A stretch of 64,000 nt of DNA from NCBI RefSeq assembly GCF_900107545.1, contig NZ_FNQZ01000001.1:62001-126000 (forward strand), written 5' to 3'. The first letter of the stretch is position 1, and every line of letters starts with the position of its first letter. Positions 6,343 through 58,264 of this stretch are shown here, piece by piece. The notes under the pieces are model-generated. The model did no database searches and was not told where the DNA came from. It saw only the letters and a program-made list of their open reading frames with translations. The position numbers and the translations under genes are program-made. Source of the DNA: Pseudobutyrivibrio sp. ACV-2 (lineage in GTDB: Bacteria; Bacillota; Clostridia; Lachnospirales; Lachnospiraceae).

Positions 6343-7905
6343 ATGTCAGATTACATCTTGGAAATGAAACATATCATAAAAGAGTTCTCAGGTGTCAGGG
6401 CACTCGATGATGTAAATCTGCAGGTAAAAAAGGGAGAAATCCATGCTCTTTGTGGAGAGAATGGAGCTGGTAAGTCTACACTGATGAATGTCCTTTCAGG
6501 AGTTTATCCATACGGAACCTATGAAGGAGATGTTGTATACCATGGGGAGGTATGCAAATTCCATAACCTTAGAGATTCCGAGGCCAAGGGCATAGTTATT
6601 ATTCATCAGGAGCTTGCATTAAGTCCCCTTCTTTCAATTGCAGAAAATGTATTTTTGGGAAATGAACAGCTTTCCATGAAGGGCGTTATTGACTGGACAA
6701 AGACCAGACAGCGTGCACAGGAAATGCTTTCCAGAGTTGGTCTTGAAAATGAAAATGTAAATGCTCCAGTAAACTCATTAGGTGTTGGAAAACAGCAGCT
6801 TATTGAAATTGCAAAGGCAATGGCAAAAAAGGTAGAATTACTTATTTTGGACGAGCCTACCGCCGCCTTAAATGATGAGGAGTCTAAAAAGCTTCTTGAT
6901 ATTATGCTGGAGCTCAAAAAGCAGGGAATTACCTGTATCATTATTTCTCATAAGTTAAATGAGATTAGCTACGTTGCAGATGCAGTTACTGTTATCCGTG
7001 ATGGTCAAACAATAGAGACTCTTGTAAAGGGAGTTGATGATTTCTCTGAGGATAGGGTTATTAAGGCTATGGTGGGGCGTGAGCTTACTAATCGATATCC
7101 TGTGAGAGAGGGTGTTACAATAGGCGACACTATTTTTGAAGTTAAAAATTGGAATGTATATCATCCAGATGATCCTGAACGTCAGGTTCTTAAAAATATT
7201 AACATCGAAGTTAAAGCAGGAGAGGTAGTTGGTCTGGCAGGACTTATGGGCGCTGGTCGTACAGAATTTGCCATGAGTGTGTTTGGACACAGCTACGGAC
7301 AGAAAATCTCTGGTACAGTAAAGATTAACGGAAAAGAGGTTAACCTTCACACAGTAAAGGATGCTATTAATAATAAGCTTGCTTATGTAACCGAGGATAG
7401 AAAGACAAATGGACTTATTTTAATTGGTGATATCAAAGAAAATATGGCTCTTGCAGCTCGTCCAAAGTTTTTCTCAAAGCGAGGTGTCATAAATGGCAAC
7501 GAGGAGATTTTAGCTGCTGAAGAATATAAAAAGAAAATTAACGTAAAAGCGAATTCCATCAATCAGGTGGTAGGCTCTCTTTCAGGCGGTAATCAGCAAA
7601 AGGTAGTGTTGGCAAAATGGATGCTTACTCAACCTGATGTTTTGATACTTGACGAGCCTACACGCGGCATTGATGTAGGTGCCAAATACGAAATATATTG
7701 CGTCATTAATGATTTGGCAAGAGCGGGGAAGGCGGTAATTGTAATTTCATCTGAAATGCCTGAAATTATTGGTACCTGCGACAGAATTTATGTCATTAAT
7801 GAGGGAGAGATTGCGGGTGAGCTTTCCAAAGAAGAGGTTTCTCAGGAAAGAATTATGCAGTGCGTAATGGCTCACAACAGAAAGGATGATGGAAATGGAA
7901 AATAA
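6343..7905 (+). CDS. Multiple-monosaccharide ABC transporter, double ATP-binding protein (GguA/MglA-like)
   Basis: A 520-residue ATPase with two ABC domains in one chain. Domain 1 has Walker [10 protein letters not shown] (residues 38-46) and Walker [12 protein letters not shown]. Domain 2 has the degenerate Walker [11 protein letters not shown] typical of sugar ABC ATPases, a normal signature [10 protein letters not shown], and Walker [15 protein letters not shown]. It energises import of the sugar delivered by the upstream lipoprotein. The ATG at 6343 follows AAAGGAG; an in-frame GTG at 6319 lies inside the hairpin stem and is unlikely to be the start. The 3' end overlaps the permease gene. 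Confidence 0.94.
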
Positions 7906-9061
7906 GAGAGCTAATTTAGACATGAAGCAATATGGCATGTTCATTGCCCTTATTGTTATATATTTGATTTTTGCCCTCCTTACCGGAGGAAAGAACCTTA
8001 CACCAATGAACATTAACAACCTGGTTATGCAAAATGGCTATGTTGTAATTCTCGCAATCGGTATGCTGCTTTGCGTACTTACAGGAAACGTTGACCTTGG
8101 TGTTGGATCTGTAGTTGCTCTTTGTGGTGCCACAGCCGGTATCATGATGATGGACTATAAAATGAATATGTGGGTTGCAATCCTTTGCGCGCTTGCGATT
8201 GGTCTATTAGTAGGTATGTTTGCGGGCTTCTTTATAGCTTACCTGAGCATCCCACCATTTGTTGTTACACTCGCTACAATGCTTATGGGCCGCGGTCTTA
8301 CCTATACACTGCTTCAGGCTCAGACCAAAGGCCCACTTCCTACTAATTACAACTTTATCGGTGCAGGCTTCCTTCCAACCTACAAGATTTTCTTTGGTGA
8401 TGGAATCCTCGATTTAGTATCAATAGCTATTGCCCTTATTGCATCAGTAGCACTTGTATGGACAGAGATTAAGGGCATTAATACAAAAAAGAAATATAAT
8501 TTTGTTTTAGCACCAACCTGGCAGACAGTAGTAAAGCTTGTAATTGAGCTTTTCATCATTTGGTTCTTCTTCTACAAGCTTGCTCGTTACAATGGTCTTC
8601 CTTTTGTACTTTTAATCATGGTAGTACTCATTGGAATATATGCTTTTGTTACTACAAAAACAGTAGCTGGTCGTCAGATATATGCACTTGGTGGCAACAG
8701 AAAAGCAGCCAACCTTTCAGGTATTGATACAAACAAAGTATTCTTCTGGGTATACACAAACATGGGTGTACTTGCAGCCATAGCAGGTATAGTTCTTTCA
8801 GCAAGAAACGGTTCTTCAACACCTAAGGCTGGTGATGGTTTCGAAATGGATGCCATTGCGTCTTGCTACATCGGTGGTGCAGCCGTAGCCGGTGGTTCAG
8901 GAACAATCCTTGGAGCAGTAGTAGGCGCCTTTGTAATGGGTGTCCTCAACAATGGTATGTCACTCTTTGGATGGTCTACAGATATCCAAAAAATAGTAAA
9001 AGGTGCTGTACTTCTTGGTGCTGTAACAGTAGATGTGCTCTCGAAACGCAAGAAGAATTGA
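7886..9061 (+). CDS. Multiple-monosaccharide ABC transporter, permease (GguB-like)
   Basis: A 391-residue BPD_transp_2 permease with about ten hydrophobic segments. The family motifs [15 protein letters not shown] (early) and [20 protein letters not shown] (after the middle helices) are clear, as is [20 protein letters not shown] near the end. It forms the membrane channel for the upstream binding protein and ATPase. The exact start is ambiguous among in-frame ATGs at 7886, 7889 and 7895; AAAGGA at 7881 best fits 7895. It overlaps the ATPase gene by up to 20 bp, indicating coupled translation. Confidence 0.93.
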
Positions 9062-41960: not shown

Positions 41961-41988
41961 TTGAAAACACTATATGTTGTGCTATACT
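41961..41988 (+). promoter_or_regulatory. Promoter of the four-gene operon at 42-49 kb
   Basis: TTGAAA (41961-41966), 16-bp spacer, TATACT (41983-41988), with TGC immediately before the -10 box. Transcription would start near 41995, leaving an 85-nt leader. Confidence 0.65.
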
Positions 41989-42083
41989 ATAATCAAATAT
42001 GCTTGGGATAGTATAGGTTTTGGAACGCATAACAGGAAAATGTATTCTATAACATTTTGGCCAAGCGAATGAGGAGAATTGTT

Positions 42084-45000
42084 TTGAGAAAAAGAATCTA
42101 TCGCATTTCCGAAGATAAATTCGACGACTTAAAACCAAATATTGAGTTTGAAGCAGAGCAGATTGAAGAAACCTGCTTTATTAATAATACATTTTCTGGA
42201 AGTATTTTTTTTAAAAGTACAAACGGCGTTAAAATTCGTGGTGTAGTTTATTGTGACAATCCTTATGTCAAAATAGCTGATCCTTTGTTTGATAGTATAA
42301 ATGTCCGTATAGATTATTTCGTTGATGACTACAACTTTAAGCCATCTGAGTCTCTAAAAGGGCATTTTATTATCGTTGCAGTGGGTATTGAAAAATACAT
42401 TCCATTTTCTATTACATATCAAAAGCCTCCACTTACATGTTCTGCAGGAGAAATTCATTCGCTTCAGGAATATGCAGATTTTGCTCAAAGCAGATTTTCA
42501 GAGGCAGTTTCTTTATTTTACACAGACAGATTCGCAGATTTTATTTCAGAGCAGGATAGACGTACAAGGCTTCTCTACAGAGGCTTTAAGGCAGCGCCTA
42601 TAGCTGCGGTAAATGTTGATGAATTTCTTGTTGCCTGTGGTCTGAAAACTAAAATGACTTTTGATTTGCATGAACGTGAAGACAGGTATTTTGAGGTGGC
42701 CGAAAACGTTCGTGGAGAAATCGAAATTTGCCGTTCGACCTGGGGATTTATAGATATTTCAGTTTCCTGTGATGCAGATTTCATTACTGTGGAAAAGGAG
42801 CATATTACGGGTGATTTTTTCCTTGGCTCCATTTTCAATATGAATTATTACATCCATAAGGATAAGATGCATGCAGGAATCAATCTTGCACGTATTTCAT
42901 TTGATTATCGTGATATCCATAAGGAAATTACAATCATAGCCAGTGCTGACAAGGAAGGCGTATCTATTGATTCAGATGAATTTTTCCAAAATAGGAAAAT
43001 TCTAGCAGCCTTCAGATTATATGAGGATTTTAGACTTCGAAGAGTTAGTACAGGCCAATGGTGCACCCAGACGTTGGAAATAATTGATTCGCTTGAAGAA
43101 AATCAAAAAAATGAAAATTTCATTCTTTTGTTAAAGGCATTTCTATATGTCACAAACAACCAAAAGCAGGAAGCTCTTTGGATTATTCAGGATTTAAAGC
43201 GTACTATAGAGGATAAGCGCAGCAGAGAGTGGGCTTTTCTTTTGTATGTATGCACTCTTATTGAGCGTGAAGAAGACTATGTTGATAGATTAACAGAAAA
43301 TATCGAGGGGATTTTCAGAGAACACAGAAACGATCCTAATATTTTCTGGTTCCTGCTGTTTTTACGCAAGGAATATATCAAAAATCCTACAGCGAAACTT
43401 AGAGATATAGCTCAGTGGGTAGATGAGGGGTTTGATTCTCCACTTTTATACATTGAGGCTTACTATATTTTTCTTCAGGATCCATATCTTATTGCAGGCT
43501 TTGATGAAATCACTTTAAAGGTCTTAAATTGGGCAAAGAAAAAGGATGCCATTACAAAGGATTTCGCAATTCAGATGATTCATGTCCTTGAGACTGAAAA
43601 AGGCTTTAATCCAAAAGCATTGCCTATACTTGATAAATGCTATGAGATATATCCTGATGAACAGTTTTTGCTTGCGATTGTATCGTATTTGTTGAAGGCT
43701 CCTTACGTAGATGAAAGCTTTCTTAAATGGTACAAAATGGCTATCGAGGCAAATCTACATGTTCCTGGGATTTTTGAAGCCTATATGGAGGCTATGCCAT
43801 CATATTCAGTTGATAAGCTTCCTCAGCTTCTTACCATGTTTTTCAAGTACAACAGCAATCTTTCATATGACAAAAAAGCCTTACTTTATGCAAATATTAT
43901 TCTGCACAAAGATGAAGATTATGATACCTACGAGCATTATGAGAGTGCAATAGAAACATTTGCTCTTGAGCAGCTTAGACTCGGACGTTTAGATGACAAC
44001 CTTGCTGTTTGCTATCAGAGGTTAATGAAACTTGGTATCTTTGATAAGGAAGTTGCTAGATTAATATCGGAGCTTTCCTTTAAACGCAAATTCGCTGTAA
44101 TCAATTCTGATATAAGAAGGATATTCATTTACCAGGATGAGTTTAAAGTTCCAACCATAGCCAACATTTCAGATCATAAAGCATATGTTAACTATGTAGG
44201 TTCTGAGGGTGTGGTCTTTCTTGAAGACAACAATGGTTACCTGTTTGTAGATGATGAAGCATATCTTACAGAAGAAATCATTCATGCAGATGAATATGCT
44301 GAAAAACTTAAAGAATTAGCTCCGTTGAATCTTACCTATGCACTGATGGATTTTTCTACAGATAAGACTGTAGATGAATATACATCAAAGGATGCAGATG
44401 CTGCGGAAATGTTACTTGGATCCAAGTTGATTTCTTCTGATTTTTTGGGAAATCTGTATCCTAAAATTATTGAGATTTTACGAATCCAAAATCGTGAGTA
44501 TGTAATCGAAAAGTATTTCATGAATGAGGCTGACCTAAAATCGCTTAATGCAGATGTTATTGCTACAATTATTGAGGTCTTTATTGCCAGAAGCAAATAC
44601 GAAGAAGCCTATTATATGCTTAGGCACACAAATGCTACATTATTAAAACCAGCCGTAGCTACAAAGCTTTGTCAATTTTTGATAAATCAAAATCCAGAAA
44701 AGCCAGATGATTTCCTGATAATTTTTACAGCTGAGCTTATAAAGCTTGGAATAAGTCATAATGACATGATTCGATATCTTATCAGGTTCTATATCGGTCC
44801 TACAGAATTGATGCTAGCTATTTATAATCTGGCATTTGAAAAAGGGGAGGATCTTGTAGAGTATTCAGAAAGAATCATAACTCAGGCCTTATACAGAGAT
44901 ATTATGTTGCCTCAGATTGTTGATATTTTTGATACATATATTACTCGCCGAAATAATAAAATGATAGTAGAGGCTTTTCTTACTTATGAAGCCCATGATT

Positions 45001-45617
45001 ACCTGGCTAATCAAACTAAAATTCCTGAAAATATCTTTGCATACATATACAATCGATTTAAAAAGGGGCAAAATGTAAATGAGAGCATGCGCATTGCACT
45101 TTTAAAATATCTATGTACGCAACCAGATTTGGATGAAGACGATATGAGCATGCTGGACATGCTTCTCGCAGATGCTATTCTTAGAAATCAATATTTTGGA
45201 TTTTTTGCACTCTGCAATGAACGTTTAAAGATAAAGTATCATCTTTACGACAAAAAGTTTATCGAATTTAATACAGATAAACGTAAATCGGTGGTTATCG
45301 TTTACTCTATTAATGGTGCAGAACCAGTGGAAGAGGATATGATAGAAATGTACGATGGACTTTATGTTAAGCAGTTCATTTTATTCTTTGGTGATGAGCT
45401 CAGATATGAGATATATTGTGATGAGCTGTCAGAAGAACCACTAAAGGCAGATACTTTTGTGTTGAGCGATGAGCTTGAGGAAAAACAAGGTCGTTACGCA
45501 TTAATGAACAGTATTTCCCGTCACAAAATGTATGGAGAAGTTTACGAACTAGCCGATGAAGTAAAACGTTATCAAGGTCTTGCCAGTGTAACAAACGATT
45601 TATTTTCTATCGTATAG
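42084..45617 (+). CDS. Large DUF5717-type helical-repeat protein
   Basis: A 1177-residue protein, apparently cytoplasmic (no signal peptide or membrane helix seen). An N-terminal region of about 125 residues looks like beta-strands (SGSIFFKSTNGVKIRGVVYC; GIEKYIPFSITYQKPPL), then a long run of paired helices rich in Tyr, Leu and Glu, as in TPR-like solenoids (ARSKYEEAYYMLRHTNATLL and similar), and a beta-rich end (VVIVYSINGAEPVEEDMIEMY). It resembles the DUF5717 proteins of Lachnospiraceae, of unknown function. The start is TTG 42084 after GAGGAG. It leads the operon with the next three genes. Confidence 0.72.
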   Translation: MRKRIYRISEDKFDDLKPNIEFEAEQIEETCFINNTFSGSIFFKSTNGVKIRGVVYCDNPYVKIADPLFDSINVRIDYFVDDYNFKPSESLKGHFIIVAVGIEKYIPFSITYQKPPLTCSAGEIHSLQEYADFAQSRFSEAVSLFYTDRFADFISEQDRRTRLLYRGFKAAPIAAVNVDEFLVACGLKTKMTFDLHEREDRYFEVAENVRGEIEICRSTWGFIDISVSCDADFITVEKEHITGDFFLGSIFNMNYYIHKDKMHAGINLARISFDYRDIHKEITIIASADKEGVSIDSDEFFQNRKILAAFRLYEDFRLRRVSTGQWCTQTLEIIDSLEENQKNENFILLLKAFLYVTNNQKQEALWIIQDLKRTIEDKRSREWAFLLYVCTLIEREEDYVDRLTENIEGIFREHRNDPNIFWFLLFLRKEYIKNPTAKLRDIAQWVDEGFDSPLLYIEAYYIFLQDPYLIAGFDEITLKVLNWAKKKDAITKDFAIQMIHVLETEKGFNPKALPILDKCYEIYPDEQFLLAIVSYLLKAPYVDESFLKWYKMAIEANLHVPGIFEAYMEAMPSYSVDKLPQLLTMFFKYNSNLSYDKKALLYANIILHKDEDYDTYEHYESAIETFALEQLRLGRLDDNLAVCYQRLMKLGIFDKEVARLISELSFKRKFAVINSDIRRIFIYQDEFKVPTIANISDHKAYVNYVGSEGVVFLEDNNGYLFVDDEAYLTEEIIHADEYAEKLKELAPLNLTYALMDFSTDKTVDEYTSKDADAAEMLLGSKLISSDFLGNLYPKIIEILRIQNREYVIEKYFMNEADLKSLNADVIATIIEVFIARSKYEEAYYMLRHTNATLLKPAVATKLCQFLINQNPEKPDDFLIIFTAELIKLGISHNDMIRYLIRFYIGPTELMLAIYNLAFEKGEDLVEYSERIITQALYRDIMLPQIVDIFDTYITRRNNKMIVEAFLTYEAHDYLANQTKIPENIFAYIYNRFKKGQNVNESMRIALLKYLCTQPDLDEDDMSMLDMLLADAILRNQYFGFFALCNERLKIKYHLYDKKFIEFNTDKRKSVVIVYSINGAEPVEEDMIEMYDGLYVKQFILFFGDELRYEIYCDELSEEPLKADTFVLSDELEEKQGRYALMNSISRHKMYGEVYELADEVKRYQGLASVTNDLFSIV

Positions 45618-45664
45618 TCAGGGCCAGTCAGACTTGAAATTTGAGATATTAGGATAAAATAGAA

Positions 45665-46894
45665 ATGAATGAAGGCATATACCTGGGTATAGATATCAGT
45701 TCAAGATATACTGTACTAAGCATTTACAATTTAAATATGGCAGAGCCTACTACTATAAGCACAGTAGTAGGGGAAGAAAACTATTCGATTCCTACAGTGC
45801 TCGCTAAGCGACTTGGCATGACACAATGGTTCTTTGGAGATGAAGCACTTAGAATGGGGCGTCTGAAAGAAGCAATCATAGTGGATGAGCTTTTTAACCT
45901 GGCTCTTAGAGATGGTAATGTTGTAATCGATTCTGAAAATTTTGTTGCTCGTGACTTGCTTGTAATTTATTTCAAAAAGCTGTTTTCATTATCGGGAACT
46001 CTTTCGGTAATAGATAATATCGAAAAGCTTATACTTTGCGTTCCACAGGTCACCCTGGAAGTTATGGAGACTAGCAATTACATTGCTTCAAAGCTTGGAA
46101 TCGATCAGAACAAAGTGATGCTGATAGATAGAAATGAGTGCTTTTACTACTATGCATTATCACAAAAGCCAGAGTTGTTTCTTTATAATGTGGCACTTTT
46201 TGATTACAGTGGGTCAAACATGGTGTCATGCACGCTAAACCGAAATCAAACAACACGTCCACAGCTTGTGACTTTAGATGTGATAAACCATGGTGAAATT
46301 ACAGAAAATAAAGATGAAGAGTTTGATCAGGTTATCACTACAGCAATGGGCAACAATCTTTTTTCATCAGTATATTTGGTTGGTGATGGTTTTGATGGAG
46401 AATGGATGAAGGTTAGTCTTTCTCATCTTTGTAAGGGGCGAAAGGTTTTCCTTGGCAAAAATCTCTATTCAAAGGGAGCCTGCTATGCAGGTGTTATAAA
46501 AGAAGGAAAAAAGGATTGGCCTTTTATCTATATTGGTGACAACGATTTAAAGCTAAACCTTTCTATAAAAATATTAGAAAACAATACTATGAAGTTTTTC
46601 ACCCTAATCGATGCCGGACAGAGCTGGTACGATGTAAAGGGAGAGTGTGAAGTAATACTTGATGGTGAACCCGAAATTGAATTCTATATTCAAAGACCAG
46701 AATCCAGAGAAGCTCACACTGAATTACTAGAATTAACTGATTTACCAAAGAGGGAAAACCGCACGACCAGACTTCGCATTGAAGCACGACCGGTTTCCGA
46801 TGTGGCAGTTTCCATTACCATTTTTGATTTAGGCTTTGGGGAAATTTCTCCTTCCTCGGGTAAGAGCTGGGAACACATAATTTCAACAAAATAA
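45665..46894 (+). CDS. DUF5716-type protein with an Hsp70/actin-like ATPase fold
   Basis: A 409-residue protein. Three blocks match the Hsp70/actin nucleotide site: YLGIDISSRYTVLSIYNL at residues 5-22 (phosphate 1), VALFDYSGSNMVSCTL near 175-190 (phosphate 2), and SVYLVGDGFDGEW followed by KGACYAGVI at 235-280 (adenosine motif). After residue 300 a beta-rich domain follows (FYIQRPESREAHTE; TTRLRIEARPVSDVAVSITIFDLGFGEI), placed like a substrate-binding domain. It probably binds ATP and clients, perhaps the neighbouring proteins (inference). It lies 47 bp after the DUF5717-type gene. Confidence 0.68.
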   Translation: MNEGIYLGIDISSRYTVLSIYNLNMAEPTTISTVVGEENYSIPTVLAKRLGMTQWFFGDEALRMGRLKEAIIVDELFNLALRDGNVVIDSENFVARDLLVIYFKKLFSLSGTLSVIDNIEKLILCVPQVTLEVMETSNYIASKLGIDQNKVMLIDRNECFYYYALSQKPELFLYNVALFDYSGSNMVSCTLNRNQTTRPQLVTLDVINHGEITENKDEEFDQVITTAMGNNLFSSVYLVGDGFDGEWMKVSLSHLCKGRKVFLGKNLYSKGACYAGVIKEGKKDWPFIYIGDNDLKLNLSIKILENNTMKFFTLIDAGQSWYDVKGECEVILDGEPEIEFYIQRPESREAHTELLELTDLPKRENRTTRLRIEARPVSDVAVSITIFDLGFGEISPSSGKSWEHIISTK

Positions 46895-46908
46895 TAAAGC
46901 AGGTTTCT

Positions 46909-47742
46909 ATGAGTACTTTAATTTATTGTCAAAATGCGTTATCCGCTACGCCATATTACATAGAAGAAGCAGCGCTAAATGTTTATTCGTTGGAGGAACT
47001 TAGTTACTACATACTCAACAACGTCTATTTGCTTTCCACAAAGCTTATGAGTTCAGAACTTTGCAATTGGATTGGAAGAGAGCTAAAACAGCAAAAGCTT
47101 GCAAATGAACTTTTGGGTCTGGTTCAAAACAATGCACCTCTGCATATATTTGTTGGTCATATTTTAAGCGCCAATGGTTATGCCAGTGCAAAGGAGATTA
47201 AAGATACTCTAGCTATTATTTCAACCTTTGAAAATAAATCAGAAGCAGAGCGAAAAAAACTTCGTGCTGATAGGCTTATGGCAAATGATAAGCTTGTTGA
47301 TGCTATTTATGAGTATGAAACAATTCTTTCTGATAACGTAGCGAAAACTATGCCTAAGGCGGTAGAAGGTGATGTTTATCATAATTTAGGCTGTGCTTTT
47401 GCTAAATTATTTTTCTTTAATGAAGCGATGCTATGTTTTGATGAAGCGTATAAAAAAAATCAAAAGAAACAGAGTTTGTATTGTCTGTTGTACGCAGCCA
47501 GATGTGATAGAAATAAAGCAAAGTTTGAAGAATATATTAATAAATATCTTATTTCAAAAGAGGATGTGGACGAGGTATTAAAGGCTGTTACCATCGTTAC
47601 AACGAAAGATTCAATTACAGAATTTGATAATGCGGTTAATGAGCTTATAAGTGACGATGAAAAAAGGCAGGGGGCTATCGCGACGCTTGATAATGTTATT
47701 AGCGAGTGGAAAGACGAATATATCAGGCTATGTAAGATTTAG
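46909..47742 (+). CDS. TPR-containing protein of the DUF5716/5717 operon
   Basis: A 277-residue soluble, mostly helical protein. Residues 115-185 look like TPR units (KLVDAIYEYETIL; VYHNLGCAFAKLFFFNEAMLCFDEAYKKN), preceded by a conserved-looking helical N-terminus (YYIEEAALNVYSLEELSYYILNNVYLL). No family name is recognised. It follows the Hsp70-like gene by 14 bp and so belongs to the operon; TPR proteins often act as partners of Hsp70-type ATPases, which is the only functional hint. Confidence 0.65.
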   Translation: MSTLIYCQNALSATPYYIEEAALNVYSLEELSYYILNNVYLLSTKLMSSELCNWIGRELKQQKLANELLGLVQNNAPLHIFVGHILSANGYASAKEIKDTLAIISTFENKSEAERKKLRADRLMANDKLVDAIYEYETILSDNVAKTMPKAVEGDVYHNLGCAFAKLFFFNEAMLCFDEAYKKNQKKQSLYCLLYAARCDRNKAKFEEYINKYLISKEDVDEVLKAVTIVTTKDSITEFDNAVNELISDDEKRQGAIATLDNVISEWKDEYIRLCKI

Positions 47743-47791
47743 AATAAGTGCATTATAGGTTTAACAAACAATTGGGGTGGGAGATTTTACT

Positions 47792-49012
47792 ATGGCATTT
47801 TTTTCTAGAAGAAAAAATAAAAGAGAGCAAAGAGCGGCCAAAATAGACGATGCTTTTAATCGCGTTTACTCTCAAATCGAAAATATTGACAGTTGGGAGG
47901 ATCCAAAAAAGCTAGAACATTATATTCTTGATTCATGTGAGCAGATTATTGCCTCTACCAAGGCTATGGAACGCCAAAAGACAGAATACCGAATAGTTAC
48001 TCAATATCTTAATGATATTAAAGCTTTAGAAAATCTGCCAAAAGAGACTTCTAGAGATTTGAGAAGTGCTGCAACTCATATATGTGAATTGCAACAGAGT
48101 ATGGATGAAGTCAGAAATACTCAGAGAAACATATCTGACGTGCAGTACCAAATTATTTCAGACGAAGAAAATGATATGCCTGAGATAATTAATCGTTTTG
48201 CGGCAGATGAAATATATCAGGCAAAGCTCAAGAAAAATCTTGCATATATTGAAGGTGAAAAGAGTAGATGGGAAATAGAGCGTGAAGAACTTATGGGGCA
48301 AACCAAGCTATTTAAACATATGGCTATGGCTGTGTTGGTTTGTTTTATGACGCTTATTATTCTTCTTTATGTTATGTATGCTGCTACTCAAGCAGATATA
48401 ACAATTTGGCTTCTTATGGTTTTGTTTATATGTGCCACTAGTGGGTTTATTATTTTTATCAGGCAAAATAGTATTTCGCGAGAAGGCCGAAATGCATTGA
48501 TTCGATTGAATCAGGCTATAAGCGTGCTGAATGTGGAACGCATGAAATATGTAAATGTAACAAATAGTATCGAATTCTTAAAAGACAAATACTTCGTTAA
48601 CTCGGCTGCTGAACTACAATATGTTTGGGAGCAATATCAGGACAAGCTTCGTGATAGAAAACGATATATTCAAAATAACGATGATTTGGAATTTTATAAC
48701 GATAAACTTGAAAGAGTATTGGGGGAGATAGGTCTTTCAGATGATAAGATTTGGCTGAATCAGGTTAATGCTTTGGTTAATAAGCAGGATATGGCTGATT
48801 GCAGGCACAGGCTGGTAATGCGTCGACAAAAGATTAGAGACAGATTAGATGACCATAGAAGGATAGTTCAGGAAGAACGAGATGAAATAGATAGACTGAT
48901 GTCAAGGCATGAACATTATCTTCCTGAGATTCAAGAAATTATAAAATCTGTTGATAGACTTTGCGGAACCCATTCAAGCGTAAATGAAAAAGATAAAAAT
49001 GTAGGCTCCTAA
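47792..49012 (+). CDS. Coiled-coil membrane protein, last gene of the DUF5716/5717 operon
   Basis: A 406-residue protein. Long charged coiled coils (residues 5-175 and 240-395) flank two adjacent membrane helices: one at about 180-200 (MAVLVCFMTLIILLYVMYAA) and one at about 205-225 (IWLLMVLFICATSGFIIFI), so both coiled-coil arms should face the cytoplasm. No catalytic motif is seen. It could anchor the cytoplasmic partners to the membrane (inference). The ATG at 47792 follows GGGTGGGAG; an in-frame GTG at 47777 is less likely. Confidence 0.65.
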   Translation: MAFFSRRKNKREQRAAKIDDAFNRVYSQIENIDSWEDPKKLEHYILDSCEQIIASTKAMERQKTEYRIVTQYLNDIKALENLPKETSRDLRSAATHICELQQSMDEVRNTQRNISDVQYQIISDEENDMPEIINRFAADEIYQAKLKKNLAYIEGEKSRWEIEREELMGQTKLFKHMAMAVLVCFMTLIILLYVMYAATQADITIWLLMVLFICATSGFIIFIRQNSISREGRNALIRLNQAISVLNVERMKYVNVTNSIEFLKDKYFVNSAAELQYVWEQYQDKLRDRKRYIQNNDDLEFYNDKLERVLGEIGLSDDKIWLNQVNALVNKQDMADCRHRLVMRRQKIRDRLDDHRRIVQEERDEIDRLMSRHEHYLPEIQEIIKSVDRLCGTHSSVNEKDKNVGS

Positions 49013-49024
49013 AAATAGGAGCCC
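49003..49024. terminator. Hairpin at the convergent end of the 42-49 kb operon
   Basis: GGCTCCT AAAAAT AGGAGCC (49004-49023). Read on the minus strand the stem is followed by TACATTTTTATC, so it serves the EEP gene best; it also includes the stop codon of the plus-strand gene. Confidence 0.7.
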
Positions 49025-56323: not shown

Positions 56324-58264
56324 ATGTCTCGGTCAGAAGACTATTTGGACGGGCTTCTTAATTCTATAAATAGAGCTAAGACTGACGCTGAGTATGTGCA
56401 AGAAAATGTTGAGAGAAAACAACAGAAATTTGTAGAATCTCGAAAGGCAGTGAACCCAGACGAAGATTTTTTCGCTGCTACTGGCATTGATGTTCGGCAG
56501 ACAAGACCAAAGAGCTCACATCCTTACCTCAGGAAGGTGTTTTCTGAGGAAGATTTTTTGCGCAAATTTGAAGAAGAACTTGAAAATGAAGACGATGCAG
56601 ATTCATTTTTAGCAGAATTTGAGGAGGAATTAAACAAAGACGAACAACTCTTCATGGAAACAGGAAAGGCTCCAGATGATGAAGGAGTTGTAGATAAGCT
56701 TCTGAACAATATAGATAATGCAGTTGCGAATGCGACCAAACAGCTTGATGAAAATCCAGAAGTTATGGAAGCTGTAGCTAGCGATGATATAAATATGTCG
56801 GTAGAACCTGAGCCTATAGAATCCGAGCCTTCAGAACCTGAACTTATAGACTCTGATCTCATAGAAGAAATAGTTGAAGATGAACCACAGGAAGTTATGG
56901 AGTCCCCTCTTGAAAGCAGTGGAGGCATAGGGGATGAAGAATTAAAACTTCCGGATGATGATGATATTGATTTGTCTCAATTTATAGAAGAGTCTGATAC
57001 AGACGAAATGCCATCAGAATCAAATGACTCACCAGATGATTTTGGGTTATCTCTCGATGACATGGCTGATATTGAAGAAGAACCTTTGGATGATTCGTTA
57101 AAGGAATTCCTTCCAGATGATATGGATGCATTAGATGCTGCAGAATTTGGGGAGGGAGAAGAGCCTGATTTATCTGGTGAAGGAGATTTAGATGTAGAAA
57201 GCATTCTAGAAGGGGATGAGGATCTTTTGGATATAAATTCTATTTTAAGTGGTGATGACGAAGGCTCATCAGGCTCTGCGGATATAGATACATCTGCAGA
57301 GGAATCTGACGATAGTTCATCGGATGACGGTGGTAAAAAAGGTAAAAAGAAAAAAGAGAAAAAAGAAAAGAAAGAAAAGAAAAAGAAGGAGAAAGGCGAA
57401 AAAAAGCCTAATCCGTTTTTACAAAAGCTTGCGTTGATTATATTTGGTGCTCCAGATGAAGACGAAATAGCTGAAATGGAGGCTGAGAAGGCAAAGAAAA
57501 ATGGAACTGTGGAGATTACCTATGATGAAGATGGCAATCCAATAGTTCCAGAAGGTGGTATTCCAGAGGATCCTAAGGAAAAGAAAAAGAGGGAAAAAGC
57601 GGAAAAGAAGGCCGCAAAAGAGGCTGCGAAAAAGGAAAAAGAAGAAGCTAAAAAAGAGAAGGAAGCAGCTAAAAAAGAAAAGCCAAAGAAACCACCAAAG
57701 CCTAAAAAACCAAAGAAACAAAAAGAACCTGATAATTCTCCGAAAATTCCTCTTTCCATTATTGCTACTTTTTTGGTATTATCTATATCAATAATTGGTG
57801 TAGTAATTGTCGGAATGCAATTCACGGGCCTTAAACGACATATGTCCCAGGCTAATGATTTGTTCACCGAGGGGAATTACATTGCAGCTTATGAAAAGCT
57901 GAACGGTTTTGACTTCAGGTCAGATGAGAAAGTTGAACTGTTAAGAAATCAAGCCAGAACTCTTGCTGATTTGCAGCAATGTCAGGATGAATACGTAGCC
58001 TTTATGAATTATGATATGTACAATTATGCTCTTGATTCATTATTAAAAGGCTATGGACGTTACATGAAATACAAAGACGACGCTGTAAAATATGGTATTG
58101 AGACTGAGTATGATGCATTTGGCACCACTATCATACAGGAGCTAAATGACAGCTTTGGACTTTCAGAAGAGGAGGCCATGGCAATTTATAAGCAAAAGAA
58201 CCGCCATTACTATACAATAGAACTTAGAAAGGTGCTTAGAGGCTTAGGATTACCAGACACATGA
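56324..58264 (+). CDS. Large acidic and Lys/Glu-rich single-pass membrane protein
   Basis: A 646-residue protein of no recognised family. Residues 1-335 are very acidic (long Asp/Glu/Ser tracts), 335-365 and 415-470 are Lys/Glu/Pro-rich, one membrane helix lies at about 475-497 (IIATFLVLSISIIGVVIVG), and the last 150 residues form a compact helical domain outside the membrane (NDLFTEGNYIAAYEKLNGFD, TPR-like). Its stop overlaps the hisH start as ATGA, so it is co-translated with hisH-hisF despite no obvious link. The start follows AAGGGGG. Confidence 0.6.
   Translation: MSRSEDYLDGLLNSINRAKTDAEYVQENVERKQQKFVESRKAVNPDEDFFAATGIDVRQTRPKSSHPYLRKVFSEEDFLRKFEEELENEDDADSFLAEFEEELNKDEQLFMETGKAPDDEGVVDKLLNNIDNAVANATKQLDENPEVMEAVASDDINMSVEPEPIESEPSEPELIDSDLIEEIVEDEPQEVMESPLESSGGIGDEELKLPDDDDIDLSQFIEESDTDEMPSESNDSPDDFGLSLDDMADIEEEPLDDSLKEFLPDDMDALDAAEFGEGEEPDLSGEGDLDVESILEGDEDLLDINSILSGDDEGSSGSADIDTSAEESDDSSSDDGGKKGKKKKEKKEKKEKKKKEKGEKKPNPFLQKLALIIFGAPDEDEIAEMEAEKAKKNGTVEITYDEDGNPIVPEGGIPEDPKEKKKREKAEKKAAKEAAKKEKEEAKKEKEAAKKEKPKKPPKPKKPKKQKEPDNSPKIPLSIIATFLVLSISIIGVVIVGMQFTGLKRHMSQANDLFTEGNYIAAYEKLNGFDFRSDEKVELLRNQARTLADLQQCQDEYVAFMNYDMYNYALDSLLKGYGRYMKYKDDAVKYGIETEYDAFGTTIIQELNDSFGLSEEEAMAIYKQKNRHYYTIELRKVLRGLGLPDT

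Follow-up and report, generated by a model that had tools for sequence, protein, structure and literature searches.

The genome of Pseudobutyrivibrio sp. ACV-2, a rumen bacterium of the Lachnospiraceae (order Lachnospirales), contains an operon of four genes, here termed g1 to g4, two of whose products fall in the Pfam families DUF5717 and DUF5716. We analyzed it within a window of 64,000 nucleotides (contig NZ_FNQZ01000001.1, positions 62,001 to 126,000, forward strand; coordinates below are those of the window). Profile comparisons, structural models and gene-neighborhoods point to the product of g2 as a degenerate Hsp70, and give good support, as far as ancestry and architecture are concerned, to the operon being a reduced relative of a larger operon coding for four Hsp70 paralogs (HspA, HspB, HspC and HspD) and a GrpE-domain protein. 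The genes and signals of the locus are as follows:

41961 to 41988, plus strand: predicted promoter, TTGAAA-16-TATACT with TG before the second hexamer (consensus scan; footprint conservation)
42071 to 42076, plus strand: ribosome-binding site of g1, GAGGAG, by inspection of the sequence, 7 nt ahead of the TTG at 42084
42084 to 45617, plus strand: g1, DUF5717 protein and putative scaffold, 1177 aa, TTG start (Pfam; AlphaFold2; weak Foldseek matches)
45665 to 46894, plus strand: g2, DUF5716 protein, predicted degenerate Hsp70, 409 aa (AlphaFold2, Foldseek, hhalign, motif and spacing counts)
46909 to 47742, plus strand: g3, TPR protein, 277 aa (TPR profile match; hhalign against the larger operon's TPR protein)
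47792 to 49012, plus strand: g4, coiled coil, two transmembrane helices and coiled coil, 406 aa (hydropathy; homologs in three larger operons)
49003 to 49024, no strand assigned: 9-bp hairpin across the end of g4, common to the convergent gene (sequence scan)

Conservation of the four-gene unit

All four open reading frames (ORFs) were verified on the plus strand with intergenic gaps of 47, 14 and 49 bp (g1-g2, g2-g3 and g3-g4), confirming the layout in the initial annotation of this DNA; the start of g4 is an internal ATG of a GTG-initiated ORF that begins at 47777. The promoter proposed there is one of 20 consensus hits in our scan, and as shuffled sequence gives a mean of 31.8, the scan alone is no proof of it. 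It is instead backed by a footprint: all 13 upstream regions aligned from Pseudobutyrivibrio (the window and 12 loci), which otherwise diverge, preserve the block TTGAAAACAC..ATGTTGTG(C/T)TATA. The hairpin that was said to end the operon is present and overlaps the stop codon of g4, but its T-rich tail is on the minus strand (the plus-strand tail is TTGAAATTATTTT), so that as a terminator it fits the converging minus-strand gene better than the plus-strand operon. All four genes appear to be under selective constraint, with proportions of nonsynonymous and synonymous differences (pN and pS) of 0.11-0.18 and 0.74-0.86 against four relatives, synonymous divergence being saturated. The nearest named relatives are those of Pseudobutyrivibrio and Butyrivibrio fibrisolvens 16/4.

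To follow the unit across genomes we used 79 named loci, the best kept of 526 confirmed loci found via g2. The four genes occur together in 70 of these, as predicted earlier for related genomes, and in 69 of the 70 they lie on one strand in the order g1-g2-g3-g4, separated by gaps whose medians are 17, 12 and 19 bp. Of the nine loci without the full set, seven (L059, L084, L099, L103, L106, L115 and L120) end at a contig edge and two (L086 and L131) lack g2 in the ORF table used for the count. The commonest neighbor is a histidinol-phosphate-type aminotransferase (in 47 of the 79, including 26 loci from outside the Pseudobutyrivibrio set) and the other neighbors vary, so that the conserved unit is the four genes themselves. 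In the Lachnospiraceae (hereafter, the family), each of the 22 genomes sampled codes for both DUF5717 and DUF5716_C. Across 196 genomes of the order, 88 code for both, five for DUF5717 alone, one for DUF5716_C alone and 102 for neither, and, DUF5716_C weakly matching HspC too, these counts are not purely of orthologs outside the family. DUF5717 was recovered in 16 of 391 genomes of the class and DUF5717_N in 4 of 348 of the phylum, all in the family, in draws that sampled the other families of the order sparsely. Two candidate functions were rejected on these distributions: a dedicated role in motility, since flagellin is missing from 3 of the 22 family genomes, and a dedicated role in sporulation, since SpoVA is missing from 13, all of which carry the system. 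With regard to a mobile element, g1 gave no plasmid match. The literature searched yielded no description of DUF5716, DUF5717 or the operon, the single DUF5716 hit being PMC8115291.

The proteins encoded by the operon

Pfam places g2 in DUF5716_C (E 8e-101) and g1 in DUF5717 (DUF5717_N, E 6e-212; DUF5717, E 2.2e-71), bearing out the family names given earlier; searches with NCBIfam returned nothing above cut-off. The AlphaFold2 model of g2 (57 sequences; mean predicted local distance difference test score, pLDDT, 90.4; predicted template-modelling score, pTM, 0.79) recovered 362 PDB matches at E<=0.001 with Foldseek, the best being DnaK (E 6e-19). The best 50 of its 1425 matches are chains of Hsp70, Hsp110 or Ssz1 and the ribosome-associated complex (RAC), save two from ciliary entries that give no molecule name, with template-modelling scores (TM, relative to the query) of 0.44-0.62 at 10-15% identity. 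Comparison of g2 with HspC, HspA and DnaK using hhalign gave a match of 99.2% (E 1e-19) over 392 columns. These include the beta part of the substrate-binding domain (SBDbeta), whose end in g2, DLGFGE, aligns with D(I/L)G(F/T)G of the other three, and this C-terminal domain is well conserved. Thus, judging by model and profile, g2 qualifies as a member of the Hsp70 family by ancestry and fold, with a nucleotide-binding domain (NBD) and SBDbeta, as the initial annotation had proposed. Of the two outcomes named there as refuting its reading, a different fold of g2 and a lack of co-occurrence of the four genes, neither was seen.

Examination of the catalytic positions revealed that Lys70 and the GGGT motif are present in 13/13 HspA, 13/13 HspC and 11/11 HspD sequences, and in 0/13 HspB and 0/18 g2 sequences. 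The Thr-Thr pair of phosphate-1 is likewise seen in none of the 18 g2 proteins and in none of the HspB proteins compared. As HspB too lacks these residues, the degeneration is older than the reduction of the operon. Among 57 g2 relatives, several other positions are conserved: 1) G8 (57), D10 (56), S19 (57) and E158 (55); 2) an aspartate or glutamate at position 180, that of the phosphate-2 aspartate (53); 3) the adenosine block G240-x-G242-F243 (57, 56 and 57, respectively). The positions of the glycine-rich phosphate-2 turn (182-184) are not conserved. Hence, of the three Hsp70 blocks read earlier in g2, the phosphate-1 and adenosine blocks stand, but the phosphate-2 block, FDYSGSNM, is a local sequence.

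The stretch from phosphate-2 to the adenosine block has a median length of 68 residues in g2 (60-77, n=18) versus 140 in HspB (115-152, n=13), and elsewhere measures 146 (HspC), 153 (HspD), 180 (HspA) and 143 (DnaK). About 70-75 residues are missing at the place of NBD subdomain IIB, and in the model the phosphate-2 hairpin runs straight into the adenosine strand, with no strands or helices of IIB. This short stretch therefore indicates that subdomain IIB, on which GrpE acts in DnaK, has been removed. The model also ends after SBDbeta without C-terminal helices, i.e. the SBDalpha lid is absent. These residues make it unlikely that g2 hydrolyzes ATP in the way usual for Hsp70s, and with Lys70, the Thr-Thr pair and GGGT missing in 18/18 and IIB gone, its proposed role as an ATPase acting on its partners is not sustained.

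The remaining proteins agree with the earlier description of two repeat proteins and a membrane protein. The model of g1 (41 sequences; pLDDT 86.6, pTM 0.60) shows two Ig-like beta-sandwiches (aa 20-124 and 199-287) followed by an alpha-solenoid (298-664), a beta insert (667-731), a further solenoid stretch (735-1051), a beta domain (1057-1126) and a helical tail. Foldseek returned weak PDB matches to parts of it (best E 5e-7), with the Ig domains resembling ciliary central-apparatus and CEP192-type (Ig/ASH-type) chains, and the solenoid Ctr9/Ski3. The g3 protein, which carries a conserved segment at its N terminus (YSLEELxYY), has just a sub-threshold TPR_2 match in Pfam; it does match TPR proteins by profile, and hhalign aligns it to the TPR protein encoded in the larger operon (99.1%, 183 columns). 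The g4 protein has no Pfam family above cut-off and contains two hydrophobic segments, at about aa 176-195 and 204-223 by hydropathy; it could be aligned with homologs from three larger operons (E 3e-23, 1e-14 and 2e-9).

The larger multi-Hsp70 operon and its reduction

We fetched 14 loci of the larger operon, all from other families of the order. They combine a DUF5717 homolog, often split into parts of about 400 and 900 aa, with HspA (about 558 aa), HspB (about 415-540), HspC (about 545), HspD (about 691), a GrpE-domain protein, a TPR protein and sometimes a coiled-coil protein with two transmembrane helices. Four Hsp70 ORFs occur in 12/14 loci (with an HspD that is split in L033 counted, and L048 and L051 incomplete within the fetched stretch), the GrpE-like gene in 14/14, a g3 homolog in 11/14 and a g4 homolog in 3/14 (L033, L038 and L050). 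Two loci scanned in full gave Pfam matches to HSP70, GrpE, VWA and TPR and none to a J domain; both HspD proteins scanned carry the VWA domain at their C-terminus. HspA, HspC and HspD have intact catalytic motifs; HspB is degenerate. The GrpE-like protein is about 560-645 aa long with the GrpE domain at its end (Pfam E 2e-9 in L038 and 3e-13 in L036). In L033 it is short (278 aa, Pfam GrpE E 3e-12), and the HspD of the same locus (6343-8384, genome G003) is spread over two overlapping frames; together these may perhaps represent an intermediate of reduction or a sequencing error. The DUF5717 scaffold, DUF5716 and the Hsp70 with a fused VWA domain are specific to this order.

Two maximum-likelihood trees from quick searches, of 58 and 55 rows, show HspA, HspC and HspD each as one group (support 98-100), and in both g2 is nested within HspB, adjoining the HspB of L033 (Shimodaira-Hasegawa-like approximate likelihood ratio test 97-100). 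A search with a 13-row GrpE-like alignment, in which presence was scored at E<=1e-30 and nine genomes with weaker matches (2.7e-7 to 7.6e-4) were dropped, recovered the GrpE-like gene in 69/196 genomes of the order. Outside the family it accompanies DUF5717 in 68/71 genomes (all save G016, G167 and G186), and inside the family it occurs in 0/22. At the level of the class 41/291 genomes had matches; the 12 best, and the others listed, fall mainly on the GrpE portion at the C-terminus, in ORFs about as long as an ordinary GrpE. At the locus in the family the GrpE-like gene, HspA, HspC and HspD are missing, and g1, g2, g3 and mostly g4 remain; thus, the losses of the GrpE-like gene, of subdomain IIB and of HspA/C/D at the locus go together. 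Relocation of the lost paralogs was considered and rejected: nine extra Hsp70 ORFs of family genomes (G073, G028, G052, G118 and G180), taken from the matches listed and with a fragment from G102 (L156) left out of the tree, include none that groups with HspA, HspC or HspD. The window's own genome has one full-length canonical Hsp70.

Certain further Hsp70-related observations were made in passing. A genome of the window's genus (G118:C19:113509-115155) codes for an Hsp70 of 579 aa from its start codon inside an open frame of 1095 codons. In L102 the reduced operon is preceded, on its own strand, by a 625-aa Hsp70 ORF that is probably dnaK. Relatives of g2 (26-45% identity) are also seen in five unannotated faecal 'Bacteriophage sp.' records (MT835719.1, MT835486.1, MT835988.1, MT837634.1 and MT837190.1), which are perhaps bacterial contigs filed as phages. 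Elsewhere in the window, Pfam gave no match at E<=1e-5 for a 646-aa ORF at 56324-58264.

Possible functions and comparison with known systems

The energy-using parts of the ancestral system have been lost and an inactive-looking Hsp70 has been kept with its partners, which suggests a chaperone retained for binding rather than for ATP use. We accordingly considered whether the operon encodes a reduced Hsp70 machine that now serves as a client-binding or scaffold platform at the membrane, independent of ATP hydrolysis, a proposal we hold to be evenly balanced. The corresponding scenario would run thus: an ancestral operon with four Hsp70s and GrpE lost the GrpE-like gene and the three catalytic Hsp70s, retaining HspB as g2, which would have no ATP cycle. 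Its lid-less SBDbeta might loosely bind extended peptide segments or a built-in ligand, and its nucleotide domain might act as a docking body for g1 as scaffold and g3 as adaptor. The g4 protein would be the anchor keeping the assembly at the inner membrane face, where the complex could hold or pass on clients, such as nascent membrane or envelope proteins, spending no ATP itself. A more specific version, in which an obligatory membrane-tethered complex derived from the four-Hsp70/GrpE/VWA machine works around a pseudo-Hsp70 with neither ATP turnover nor a nucleotide exchange factor, is offered tentatively, and we incline somewhat against it.

Several points weigh against the platform proposal. 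The TM-scores of g2 to DnaK are modest because the domain orientation differs, and its sequence profile barely sees the link to solved DnaK structures (E 0.12 and 0.44). The cleft keeps G8, D10, S19, E158 and the acidic phosphate-2 position, and, although the Glu171 column is glutamate in 0/18 g2 proteins, the near-invariant E158 lies just one or three columns off, depending on the alignment. Given these residues, nucleotide binding by g2, and even some hydrolysis, may persist. The membrane link is not universal, g4 being gone from beside the operon in three of six fetched reduced loci (L040, L043 and L044). The Hsp70 trees are quick searches without bootstrap, in which long branches, including L050_B, L038_B, L040_g2 and L041_g2, were flagged. 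Finally, one sampled genome outside the family (G167, of family f8) has the reduced form. Its g2 (L044) groups with that of L043 from within the family, and as it lies on a 15-kb contig of an assembly listed with 5% contamination, it is possibly a foreign contig or else a transfer.

Of the alternatives, the one that survives best is that a non-hydrolyzing g2 acts as a RAC-like co-chaperone of the housekeeping DnaK, binding clients first and handing them on in the manner of Ssz1/Ssb. The lid-less SBDbeta and degenerate NBD are shared with Ssz1 as portrayed in the available part of PMC7083937, Ssz1/RAC chains are among the Foldseek matches listed for g2, and the window's genome has one full-length canonical DnaK as a potential partner. 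However, no J-protein is encoded by g1-g4 or by the two larger operons scanned, unlinked partners lying outside that scan, and contact with the ribosome or with DnaK is hypothetical; we regard this reading as unlikely. Decidedly less probable is an actin-like scaffold, in which g2, as an actin/Hsp70-superfamily member of the FtsA/PilM type, would recruit a membrane complex without binding clients. The membrane partner g4 and the retained G-x-D and adenosine turn would suit it, but the well-conserved C-terminal domain of g2 aligns to SBDbeta, and Hsp70-type chains rather than FtsA or PilM make up the best 50 of the 1425 matches. The working ATPase chaperone of the initial annotation is very improbable: the Hsp70 fold and the conserved G8, D10, E158, G240 and G242 speak for it, but Lys70, the Thr-Thr pair and GGGT are missing in 18/18 g2 proteins, and both subdomain IIB and the GrpE-like gene have been lost.

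We give least credence to a biological-conflict (defence) system related to the GAP1-N2 loci, which in the available part of Kaur et al. 2020 (PMC7159879) combine HSP70, GrpE, a second HSP70 and an FNIII-TPR protein: even though HspC and HspD of the larger operon L036 match the PADLOC candidate PDC-M61B (8.7e-11 and 4.5e-7), GAP1-N2 occurs in 1/26 genomes, on a contig apart from the operon and in a locus without g1, g3, g4 or a long GrpE-like match, the window's g1-g4 have 0/4 PADLOC matches at E<=0.01, and the system is present in 22/22 family genomes whereas defence genes are patchy. In all, three of six L036 proteins match candidate or TPR-type PADLOC models, the TPR protein weakly matching three. 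Separately, genome G172 (7.7 Mb) contains a GAP1-N2 locus (L163, contig C342) with GrpE, Hsp70, a double-GTPase and a HerA-type ATPase, its DUF5717 operon being on another contig.

These results provide DUF5716 and DUF5717 with an ancestry and a testable role, and reveal, in bacteria of a gut and rumen order, a multi-Hsp70 operon that is undescribed in the literature searched. They also present a natural experiment, in which an exchange factor vanished together with the catalytic Hsp70s and with the subdomain on which GrpE docks, and the substrate-binding domain was retained. If the platform mechanism is true, g2 would be a bacterial counterpart of the eukaryotic pseudo-Hsp70s, present in 22/22 sampled family genomes. 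The tethered complex of the more specific version, were it true, would belong to a family that dominates many gut and rumen communities.

Among known systems, g1 and g2 are members of Pfam families that were previously without a function. With DnaK/Hsp70 (PF00012) and GrpE the operon shares the NBD and SBDbeta fold, the G-x-D of phosphate-1, the adenosine turn, the linker region and, through HspB/HspC, common ancestry. It differs in that g2 lacks Lys70, the Thr-Thr pair, the GGGT turn, IIB and the lid, and in that the four genes include neither GrpE nor a J-protein. Duplication of DnaK is treated in PMC11019930, in the part available. The nearest described gene-neighborhood is, on the available text of PMC7159879, that of the GAP1-N2 class with HSP70, GrpE and FNIII-TPR. 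These GTPase-centric systems likewise bring together Hsp70 paralogs, GrpE, Ig/FNIII-type and TPR proteins with a membrane theme, but the operon described here has no GAP1, GTPase or tubulin. The nearest described logic is that of Ssz1 of the RAC, which the accessible part of PMC7083937 describes as a lid-less Hsp70 that binds but cannot hydrolyze ATP, acts as a low-affinity chaperone and needs no classical nucleotide exchange factor. Both are Hsp70s without a lid and with an impaired NBD, and g2, like Ssz1, might be kept in a stable complex. Nevertheless, Ssz1 keeps ATP binding and partners the J-protein Zuo1 at the ribosome, whereas g2 has also lost IIB and its partners, judged by the operon, are the solenoid protein g1, the TPR protein g3 and the membrane protein g4.

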